NCBI GenBank assembly: GCA_022545705.1
Contig: JACZQN010000007.1
Coordinates: 1-39,283 of the forward strand
Source of the DNA: Nitrospirota bacterium
Lineage (GTDB): Bacteria; Nitrospirota; Nitrospiria; Nitrospirales; Nitrospiraceae
Length of the DNA: 39,283 bases
Direction: 5' to 3'
In this document: one piece after another, positions 2,416 to 32,723 of the stretch
Position numbering within the stretch: the first letter of the stretch is position 1
How the letters are laid out: the number at the start of each line of letters is the position of its first letter
Made by a program: the position numbers and the translations under genes
Notes under the pieces: model-generated
The model's database searches: none
What the model saw: the letters and a program-made list of their open reading frames with translations, nothing else
What the model was told of the DNA's origin: nothing

Positions 2416-2422
2416 GCTCTTC

Positions 2423-2457
2423 CCTCAGTCCTCAGCCCTCCGTCCTCAGTCCTTGAC
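2423..2457. repeat. Heptameric tandem repeat, five units, consensus CCTCAGT
   Basis: Five consecutive 7-base units fill most of the gap between the unknown protein and the ferredoxin: cctcagt, cctcagc, cctccgt, cctcagt and ccttgac. On the coding (minus) strand the unit reads ACTGAGG, so a GAGG Shine-Dalgarno-like core recurs every seven bases just upstream of the ferredoxin ribosome site. It belongs with the other short-period arrays in this window. Confidence 0.75.
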
Positions 2458-25157: not shown

Positions 25158-25183
25158 GGCTCCCAGGAGCGCTCTTCGTTATA

Positions 25184-25298
25184 CGTGATGCGTGAATCGC
25201 GGGGCAGTTGACAAGCGAGCAAGCTGACAGGCGGACAAGGTCCGGATAGGAGCTCGTCAGCTCACCCGCGCTTCACGGTTCACGCTTCACGTTTCACG
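25184..25298. repeat. Inverted array of heptameric and octameric repeats
   Basis: Between the two SUMF1-like genes, cgtgatg and cgtgaat (25184-25197) face four heptads cttcacg, gttcacg, cttcacg, tttcacg (25271-25298) in the opposite sense, so the ends can pair. Between them four octads run ttgacaag, cgagcaag, ctgacagg, cggacaag (25208-25239). A 13-base inverted match (cgtgaatcgcggg against cccgcgcttcacg, one mismatch) strengthens the hairpin. Related in design to 30354-30442. Confidence 0.75.
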
Positions 25299-29240: not shown

Positions 29241-30323
29241 TCAGCCTCGCCGTCCTGCTTCGCCCGATGCGGCATTCGCCGGCTGGACAGCCCCCCCACC
29301 CGATGCCATCCTGGACTTAGACAAGATGCCCATGACGAATGGGCAACGCAGTAAGGAGGGCGGAACGGTCTCCTGAATCCGGTTCTCCACATAGCGGCGA
29401 TGCCCGAGGTAATAACCATAGAGCCCCATCAATCCCCCTACCGCCGCGGCGGCCAGAGCCTGAAACGCCGGCAGCCTCGCGTCCATGCTGAGGGCGAACC
29501 AGGCCGCTCCCACCAGCGTCAGGTAATAGGTGGCCGCAAACGTTAGGCCCGGCCACCACCAGAACCGAAACAGCTCAGCCCAACTCACCGAGCCAAGCCT
29601 GAGCTTCCATCCATCCAGGCGCTGCTCTCCAGCCAGATAAGCCCACACCGCCAAGCTGCCGGCGAACAGGCAGACGACCACGAGCTGGCCGAGCTCGGTG
29701 CGACCGACCTCGGCGAGGTGAGCCACTCCGACCCCCAAGAGAGCGCAGCCTGCGGCGCCCAGCAACGACCACTTCGCGAGGACCCACGGTCGCTCGAGAA
29801 ACAGGGCGCGCAGCGGGGCGCCATCAGGAAAGGTCAAGATCGGTTCCCCCTGCCGCTGAATCCGCCGGACGTGCCCGATCTCGAACGCATCACGCGCCAC
29901 GGAGGTGCAGGCGATGATGATGGCGATCATGGCCGGACCATCCGGATGAACCAGGAAATCATAGTTCACGAATACTTTGAGCAAAGCCAGGACCATCAGG
30001 GAGAGTTGGACGCCATAGACAAATCCGATCCAGCCGACCACCCAGCTCAGCCTTCGCACTCCGTCTTCGTTCCAGATCGCAGTCGGGCTCTCGCCACGCC
30101 CGAGCCCATACACACACCCCGCCGTGACGGCTGACAGCAGCCCACTCACCGCCAAGAGGATCAAAGGATCGGAGAGCGGAACGACGAGCTTGAGGAGCCG
30201 GTAGATGAGAAACGCCACCAGGCCGGACGCCAGCATCACCCACCGCTTCCGCTTCCGCACCGAGTCCGCGGTCACTGCGAGCGCGAGCCGCGGCATCACC
30301 CGCAATGCAAGTCTGTGGATCAT
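29241..30323 (-). CDS. Unknown polytopic membrane protein
   Basis: 360 residues with roughly eight predicted transmembrane helices, starting at about residues 27, 55, 92, 127, 188, 212, 258 and 285, and a soluble loop at about 145-185. No family is recognised; no haem or metal motif is evident. The C-terminal 40 residues are polar and probably disordered. It ends 9 bases before the bd-like oxidase paralogue, on the same strand, so a role as a partner or assembly factor of that oxidase is reasonable (inference from position). Confidence 0.75.
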   Translation of the reverse strand: MIHRLALRVMPRLALAVTADSVRKRKRWVMLASGLVAFLIYRLLKLVVPLSDPLILLAVSGLLSAVTAGCVYGLGRGESPTAIWNEDGVRRLSWVVGWIGFVYGVQLSLMVLALLKVFVNYDFLVHPDGPAMIAIIIACTSVARDAFEIGHVRRIQRQGEPILTFPDGAPLRALFLERPWVLAKWSLLGAAGCALLGVGVAHLAEVGRTELGQLVVVCLFAGSLAVWAYLAGEQRLDGWKLRLGSVSWAELFRFWWWPGLTFAATYYLTLVGAAWFALSMDARLPAFQALAAAAVGGLMGLYGYYLGHRRYVENRIQETVPPSLLRCPFVMGILSKSRMASGGGAVQPANAASGEAGRRG

Positions 30324-30353
30324 AACCAGTCTCTTTCCAACAAGCGCGAGACG

Positions 30354-30442
30354 TCATGCGTGATGCGTAATGCGTGACGGGTACTGAAGAACTCATTAAT
30401 CATCACTCAACACTCATCACGCTTCACGCGTCACGCTTAACG
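30354..30442. repeat. Inverted heptameric repeat array reaching into the PCP_red gene
   Basis: Left array: tcatgcg, tgatgcg, taatgcg, tgacggg (30354-30381). Right array: catcact, caacact, catcacg, cttcacg, cgtcacg, cttaacg (30401-30442), opposite in sense so the two can form a long imperfect hairpin. The right array overlaps the last codons and the stop (30424-30426) of the PCP_red gene, encoding its terminal KRDA. Same type as 25184-25298. Confidence 0.8.
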
Positions 30443-30924
30443 GAAGCCATGCCGAAGTAGCGCGCTTTCACTTCGTCCATCAAGGACACCGTCACGCGTG
30501 ACACTCCGCGCTCGGCCGCCGTTCGTTCCAATTCGATTCGCGCCATGGCCCGAACGGGGGCCGGCACATTCTCCAGTCGCCGTTCAGCCTCAGGCTCCCA
30601 ATCGACTTGCCCACCCTGCCTGGCCTGGTTCATGAGCGCAAAGGTGACGACGCGTCGGCCCTTGGATCGCGCATAGTCTTCCACCTCGGACTTGACCAGA
30701 GGCGCCAGGTACGGGGGCATCCGGTCCAGCCGGTGCCGTGCATCATCCGTCCACATCACCCGATCAACCAGGGCCTCGGCGTCGTCGAACGGGGTCTCCA
30801 CCCCCACGCGAAGACCGCACCCCCGACATTCCGAGCGCAGGAACAGGGTTTCCGCTCCGGGTCCGGCCGCTCTCTCTTCCAGGCCCTCCGTGTGCATCCA
30901 CCGGCCACAGCCGCAGATCAACAT
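30424..30924 (-). CDS. PCP_red-domain protein with N-terminal zinc-ribbon-like cysteines
   Basis: 166 residues. Two tandem copies of the domain named for the C-terminus of protochlorophyllide reductase subunit ChlB/BchB (PCP_red) lie at about 58-100 and 109-155, each with a WxxxAxxRLxxxPxxxR start. The N-terminus has Cys4, Cys6, Cys33 and Cys36, which could bind zinc or iron. The organism shows no sign of chlorophyll synthesis here; in other bacteria this domain occurs alone and its role is not known. It begins 4 bases after the DUF420 gene. The C-terminal KRDA is encoded by a repeat unit, which may have changed the original end. Confidence 0.78.
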   Translation of the reverse strand: MLICGCGRWMHTEGLEERAAGPGAETLFLRSECRGCGLRVGVETPFDDAEALVDRVMWTDDARHRLDRMPPYLAPLVKSEVEDYARSKGRRVVTFALMNQARQGGQVDWEPEAERRLENVPAPVRAMARIELERTAAERGVSRVTVSLMDEVKARYFGMASVKRDA

Positions 30925-32641: not shown

Positions 32642-32660
32642 ATGCTCCTCCGAAAGCGTT

Positions 32661-32723
32661 TGGTCCGTTAGGTCCGTTGAGTGCGTACGGAATTAACGGA
32701 ACTAACTGACAAAACGGACATAA
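32661..32723. repeat. Nine-base repeat array with inverted halves
   Basis: Seven consecutive 9-base units: tggtccgtt, aggtccgtt, gagtgcgta, cggaattaa, cggaactaa, ctgacaaaa, cggacataa. The first two are reverse-complement-like to the last four, so the array can fold about its middle unit. It lies just upstream of the methyltransferase ribosome site. Confidence 0.7.

Follow-up and report, generated by a model that had tools for sequence, protein, structure and literature searches.

Heptamer arrays form a hairpin at the end of the PCP_red gene

A gene for a PCP_red-domain protein in a Nitrospirota genome (2.17 Mb in 144 contigs, 94.6% complete) ends inside a run of 7-base repeats, which raises the question of what these repeats are and how they come to supply the end of a gene. 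We examined the locus within a 39,283-nucleotide stretch of this genome (contig JACZQN010000007.1; here, the window), in relatives, and in genomes of other phyla. The minus strand of the window is the coding strand of the PCP_red open reading frame (30424..30924; 166 aa, ending in FGMASVKRDA*; PF08369, E = 1.4e-25) and of its neighbors. Tandem Repeats Finder and reading of the sequence confirmed the two opposed period-7 arrays that a first-pass annotation had proposed, here placed at 30352-30442 with GTGANGC/GCNTCAC-like units; its count of ten units gave way to about eleven by eye, approximately four on the left (plus strand: CGTCATG, CGTGATG, CGTAATG, CGTGACG) and seven on the right. Tandem Repeats Finder reported three period-7 runs: 30352-30377 (CGTGATG), 30391-30420 (ACTCATC), and 30417-30442 (TCACGCT). 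The annotated overlap with the last codons and stop of PCP_red was borne out: the TGA (30424-30426) lies within the right-hand, gene-side array, and array units encode the last five codons, GTT AAG CGT GAC GCG (VKRDA).

The two arrays are the arms of one hairpin, a relationship absent from the first-pass annotation. On the minus strand, the end of PCP_red is followed by a GTGANGC-like period-7 arm (30391..30445), a loop, an inverted GCNTCAC-like period-7 arm (30348..30383 by lag-7 scan), and the start of the next gene (29241..30323, minus strand). That co-directional gene has no Pfam match, and its homologs adjoin PCP_red in relatives too (88 genomes). The whole palindromic cassette (30335..30445, minus strand) is predicted to fold as an imperfect hairpin in the PCP_red transcript: for 30330-30450, the minimum free energy was −54.7 kcal/mol (z = −6.07), and none of 200 shuffled sequences folded as well. 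No intrinsic terminator (a stem followed by a U-tract) was found at the cassette, and no Rfam family matched at gathering score in the window; we therefore rejected both an intrinsic terminator and a known RNA family as its identity.

The window holds further elements of this kind. Between two co-directional minus-strand genes lies another inverted element with units of the cassette's family (25177..25298, minus strand; pattern matches at 25177-25195 and 25266-25298), and a lone period-7 array with units of a different family (CCTCAGT) is intergenic at 2422..2454, without assigned strand. In addition, an inverted repeat with a nine-base period (CGTTTGGTC/CGTTAGGTC units) lies at 32657-32716, flanked by two minus-strand genes; lag-9 pairs resembling it occur in a relative, G002 (L119).

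The PCP_red slot turns over between relatives

PCP_red was found in all 118 family-level genomes. For 88 of these, own genome included (88 spacers kept of 90 fetched), both ends of the spacer behind the gene could be read, giving 88 aligned outcomes of one experiment: a slot that is empty or holds one of several unit families, with the flanks intact. Such a series makes the origin of the cassettes, their turnover, and their effect on the gene end testable. The slot was empty in 13 genomes (1 to 36 nt) and filled in 75 (56 to 135 nt). Among filled slots, 56 carried a significant lag-7 signal, and 40 reached an 11-of-14 match level at lag 7, compared with 0 or 1 at other lags; the predicted RNA fold had a z score below −2 in 39. 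Motif counts assigned 44 slots to a GTRA family, 8 to CTGAG, and 5 to TGAACG, with no clear period in the remaining 18.

Slot states require 27 changes on the 88-row tree. Several of the closest pairs carry wholly different cassettes, with the next gene still 93 to 96% identical over its first 150 bases; relatives also differ by units in a single arm. In one slot (L135, in G016:C163), which may vary in length, a near-pure run of approximately ten GTGAAGC units stands opposite one inverted unit. Within one genus, 16 relatives showed no link between cassette type and sequence identity at either flank, so we rejected homologous exchange of the cassette together with its flanks, although these relatives are nearly equidistant on average and the test is accordingly weak on the source of a cassette. 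The cassette type in the slot mostly had many relatives of the same type elsewhere in its genome and fewer of the other type. Most genomes showed this genome-wide unit dialect clearly; in some, such as G112 and G109 (the latter with a slot of a third type), the types were tied or mixed.

The same comparison bears on the annotated suggestion that the array supplies C-terminal residues. Across the 88 genomes, the conserved part of PCP_red ends at approximately FGM plus a few residues. The tails KREA, KREG, KSDG, and KRET accompany arrays, whereas the 13 array-free spacers give other tails (AAQRH, GAQKA, AAKG, and GAAKDVR, among others), so the last residues of PCP_red do come from the array. The suggestion stood in this respect but was qualified in another: the ends QRDDA or QRDEA also occur at some spacers with no significant period (L160, L171, L172, L174, L186, and others).

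Period-7 inverted elements recur across the genome and in relatives

The possibility of a wider repeat family in this organism was borne out: period-7 arrays are present genome-wide and in relatives. Three tandem copies of GTGAHGC, allowing up to three mismatches, matched the own genome 30 + 32 times, against 0 for the backward-read pattern; the exact two-unit pattern GTGAHGCGTGAHGC matched in 28 of 41 genomes, with 5 matches in total for the backward control. A lag scan, which needs no fixed unit, detected 39 lag-7 arrays in a 419-kb sample of the own genome that was mostly picked around matches and so is not unselected, compared with 0 to 7 at other lags (lag 14, a harmonic of 7, gave 22). 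In an unselected 200 kb of G002, there were 27 lag-7 arrays compared with 0 to 7 at other lags (lag 14, 19). The G072 sample was weak (10 versus 2 to 6); it was retained despite weakening the case, and the lag-7 excess is thus large in two of the three genomes sampled.

Many unit families coexist, including GTGAHGC, AAAGGTA, GGACTGA, GCTGATA, AGAGGCT, AATGTGG, and others. Both arms of one element belong to the same family, inverted with respect to each other, and the loop between the opposed arrays varies in length. In a survey of spacers of 25 to approximately 400 bp, lag-7 arms were found in 46 of 68 strong inverted repeats in G002, 15 of 33 in the own genome, and 4 of 14 in G072. The 46 elements of G002 fall into 37 clusters of exact units, or 8 clusters at one mismatch. 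A strict form of the inverted pattern was rare (7 of 198 genomes of the phylum; 0 in the own genome).

The class is not confined to period 7. Eight of the 33 strong inverted repeats of the own genome pass at lag 8, and octamer-period inverted elements (TCATTGAN units) occur in its spacers (L071 at 17357, L070 at 11767, L078 at 9377, L075 at 3656, and L088 at 4759). Separately, a non-periodic inverted repeat with CATTATTCATGA is common to the own genome and G002 (L081 at 3060 and L091 at 6156) and looks like the end of a transposon or MITE.

Beyond the family, the exact inverted pattern was present in at least 119 stretches of public genomes (257 Gb). By our own estimate approximately ten matches are expected by chance in this volume, and taxa with a single match are therefore unsure. 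By record title, the matches listed came from Chloroflexota (most), Bacteroidota, Acidobacteriota, Verrucomicrobiota/Kiritimatiellota, Planctomycetota, Pseudomonadota, and others, although taxon shares among the 80 titles listed carry no meaning. In most of the loci, the matched element runs on as an array past the pattern. Away from the matched element, a scan of 127 loci (119 pattern loci and 8 transposase loci) detected 140 lag-7 and 41 lag-8 arrays, compared with 1 to 4 at lags 5, 10, 11, and 13 and 25 to 34 at lags 6, 9, and 12, which are multiples of three. In one record titled as a Bordetella parapertussis MAG (L222), several heptamer families resemble those of environmental bacteria, and the label of this record may be wrong; an Oscillochloris MAG contig (L224 at 3559) holds a long pure run of approximately fifteen CGGCTAT units.

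Elements lie behind genes and carry stop codons in register

To place the elements relative to genes, we used a rough, home-made gene caller and equally rough family labels. In this census, 65 inverted lag-7 elements were found in 650 spacers of the three genomes: 57 in 513 co-directional, 7 in 66 convergent, and 1 in 71 divergent spacers (divergent versus all others, 64/579; Fisher P = 0.006). In co-directional spacers, the median distance was 4 nt from the upstream stop to the element and 22 nt from the element to the next start, and 16 of the 57 elements overlap the end of the upstream open reading frame.

Stop triplets within the 65 elements face inward twice as often as outward (221 versus 111); counted by element, 38 were biased inward, 13 outward, and 14 neither way. 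The consensus unit contained an inward stop in 39 of 65 elements, compared with 35% of random units of equal composition, and an outward stop in 17 of 65 (random units, 21%). Stops also follow the period. Among 74 filled relatives, the PCP_red slot has a second stop triplet exactly 7 nt downstream of the real stop in 54% and an out-of-frame stop triplet exactly 7 nt upstream in 34%; at other downstream offsets, apart from 14 and 21, the share is mostly close to zero and never above 15%. Over whole gene sets, a +7 stop triplet occurs in 21 of 214 genes with downstream room in the own genome (mean at other offsets, 6.6) and in 22 of 349 genes in G002 (7.8), whereas G072 has no +7 peak (6 of 118 genes; 4.8). 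Stops of array origin are therefore not peculiar to PCP_red but serve a sizeable number of genes, which shows that non-coding repeats can define protein C termini there.

The two arms mirror each other, probably at the DNA level

The symmetry of the cassettes was examined by comparing their halves. The 5′ and 3′ halves of slot cassettes matched better inverted than direct in 53 of 57 cases. Within the GTRA class, halves compared with their own partners matched better than after swapping (permutation P = 5e-5); this advantage was not found in the two small slot classes. In elements from other phyla, the arms were complementary at the free position of the pattern in 133 of the 169 distinct elements (permutation mean, 93), elements sharing a genome not being independent in this count.

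Mismatches in the stems were then scored on the transcript strand. G-U and A-C pairs were about equally frequent in the elements (42 versus 47) and in the slot (68 versus 59), compared with 44 and 0 in 27 control tRNAs, a control that somewhat favors G-U because its pairs were those assigned by ARAGORN itself. The lack of G-U excess supports an origin of the palindromes at the DNA level and weakens the case for selection on RNA pairing. Non-periodic inverted repeats likewise had no G-U excess (40 versus 44), so the test may be insensitive to hairpins other than those of tRNAs; with this reservation, we set aside direct selection on the RNA.

Dispersal of whole cassettes was also rejected. None of 65 elements had a full-length copy among the others, and the own cassette has partial matches only elsewhere in the genome, though partial copies abound; simple copy-and-paste therefore lacks support. 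No target duplication was found at any cassette, and no mobility enzyme was identified for the arrays, the distribution of Y1 transposases not following them.

Palindromic cassettes that probably turn over as non-coding DNA

We favor the reading, on balance probably correct, that these elements are palindromic cassettes of a widespread class, with arms made of tandem 7-base arrays, and that they spread and turn over as non-coding DNA. The elements have inverted arms, a period of 7, many unit families per genome, and a place behind stop codons; stops lie in register with the arrays, and one cassette is replaced by another between relatives. From these observations we infer that the spread and turnover take place at the DNA level. 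Units would be gained and lost on a single arm, as in slippage, and one arm could be copied into the other, or arrays between sites, via hairpin or cruciform intermediates. Elements would survive mainly where they are harmless: in spacers, at the ends of genes, and at a distance from divergent promoters. The inward unit often holds TGA or TAA; since 7 is not divisible by 3, a stop repeated over three consecutive units closes all three frames, and an array that overran a gene end would rewrite its last residues and give a new stop. The PCP_red end is thus best read as heptamer-array DNA that is tolerated at 3′ ends and able to take over a stop codon. Once transcribed, a cassette would form a strong hairpin just past the stop, so a role in the mRNA is possible, as a secondary effect.

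Several observations count against this reading, among them the weak period-7 excess and missing +7 peak of G072. The slot is filled more often than a typical spacer, which could mean that the cassette is useful there, and a place just behind stops is equally expected of an element acting at mRNA 3′ ends. The elements might accordingly be functional intercistronic RNA hairpins, likened to REP/BIME or stabilizing stem-loops, that protect or process the upstream mRNA or tune the next gene, with pairing rather than sequence under selection. Their position between a stop and the next start, their depletion between divergent genes, the strong folding of about half the filled slots, and the mirrored arms all suit such a function, but the symmetry of G-U and A-C mismatches, the lack of a U-tract terminator, the empty slots, and the free change of cassettes do not, and we consider it unlikely, if a serious contender. 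Paired sites for a DNA-binding protein (a nucleoid protein or global regulator) with one contact per heptamer, by analogy with Geobacter metallireducens, would account for the fixed 7-base spacing and the opposed arrays with variable loops, and available passages of PMC2700814 offer a precedent for paired tandem-repeat sites. The wide variety of units within G002 makes a single binding protein hard to fit, and the register that stop codons keep with the arrays speaks against it as well; such sites seem improbable.

Ordinary slippage, with the inverted layout as a by-product, is a still less probable account. Single-arm unit differences among relatives are of the kind it would produce, and heptameric repeats are common in bacteria according to portions of PMC4692102; as a complete account, it is mostly refuted by the better match of inverted than direct halves and by unit variants mirrored between arms. 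Least probable of all, to the point of being hard to credit, is that a Y1 (RAYT) transposase moves these elements as mobile DNA of the REP/MITE type. They are palindromic, intergenic, multicopy, and placed behind genes, as such elements are, but PF01797 is absent from the own genome and several array-bearing relatives (e.g., G004, G015, G018, and G023), while G011 has eight PF01797 matches yet no GTGAHGC pairs. REP tags are scarce: GTAG occurs in 7 of the 65 elements and CGTC in 5, compared with 5 and 1 for reversed-letter controls. We rejected REP/RAYT membership for want of both tags and transposase, and MITE membership for want of multiple full-length copies.

In this bacterial group, hairpins of this kind stand behind many genes, are replaced by differently spelled ones from one close relative to the next, and often provide the stop of the gene in front. 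A bolder extension, which we hold only tentatively and think unlikely to be right, is that in several bacterial phyla an undescribed process, largely regardless of sequence, writes period-7 (sometimes period-8 or -9) palindromes into gene ends in lineage dialects, replacing older cassettes; if true, it would keep re-editing C termini and stop codons genome-wide. The wider background is an over-representation of heptameric repeats in bacterial spacers.

Comparison with known repeat systems

Parts of this picture are already in print: heptamers near stops and in convergent pairs (Xanthomonas), stops in all frames (TAACTGA), and paired hepta- and octamers (Geobacter). In open-licence PubMed Central papers, we found no description of a multi-family palindromic form, in-register stops, or slot turnover. 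The STRR sequences of heterocystous cyanobacteria are tandem heptanucleotides in intergenic DNA; judged by description, the likeness to the present arrays is one of kind only.

REP elements tagged with GTAG or CGTC are also palindromic and mostly downstream of genes, some lying inside genes, but, as portions of PMC3733652 describe them, they have short stems of 5 to 13 bp and a tetranucleotide tag, with no heptamer period. The multicopy sites of Geobacter metallireducens share tandem 7- or 8-base repeats paired on opposite strands; they differ in comprising few families and in being proposed as sites of global regulators, and the available passages of PMC2700814 make no mention of stop-codon register or turnover. 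The TAACTGA heptamers of Beggiatoaceae are intergenic, and stops in all frames and overlap with ORF ends were noted for them in the accessible text of MacGregor (2015; PMC4679880). Unlike the present elements, they are described there as one unit in direct repeats, inverted in one instance only and mostly placed directly before start codons.

The closest precedent is the convergent GGGAATC-type heptamers of Xanthomonas (Rehm et al. 2015; PMC4692102). As portions of that paper present them, these are scattered through the spacers of aligned ORFs, seldom occur between divergent ORFs, lie near stops or overlap them, and include 70 to 75 convergent inverted pairs per genome. The elements described here share the 7-base tandem units, dispersal over spacers, inverted pairs, preference for aligned ORFs, scarcity between divergent genes, and proximity to stops; their units lack a GGG tract, being GTGANGC- or GTAATGC-like. 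Xanthomonas has one G-rich unit per genome, read as a G-quadruplex, whereas here many families coexist, G-tracts are not needed, inverted pairing is usual, and replacement at one slot is documented.
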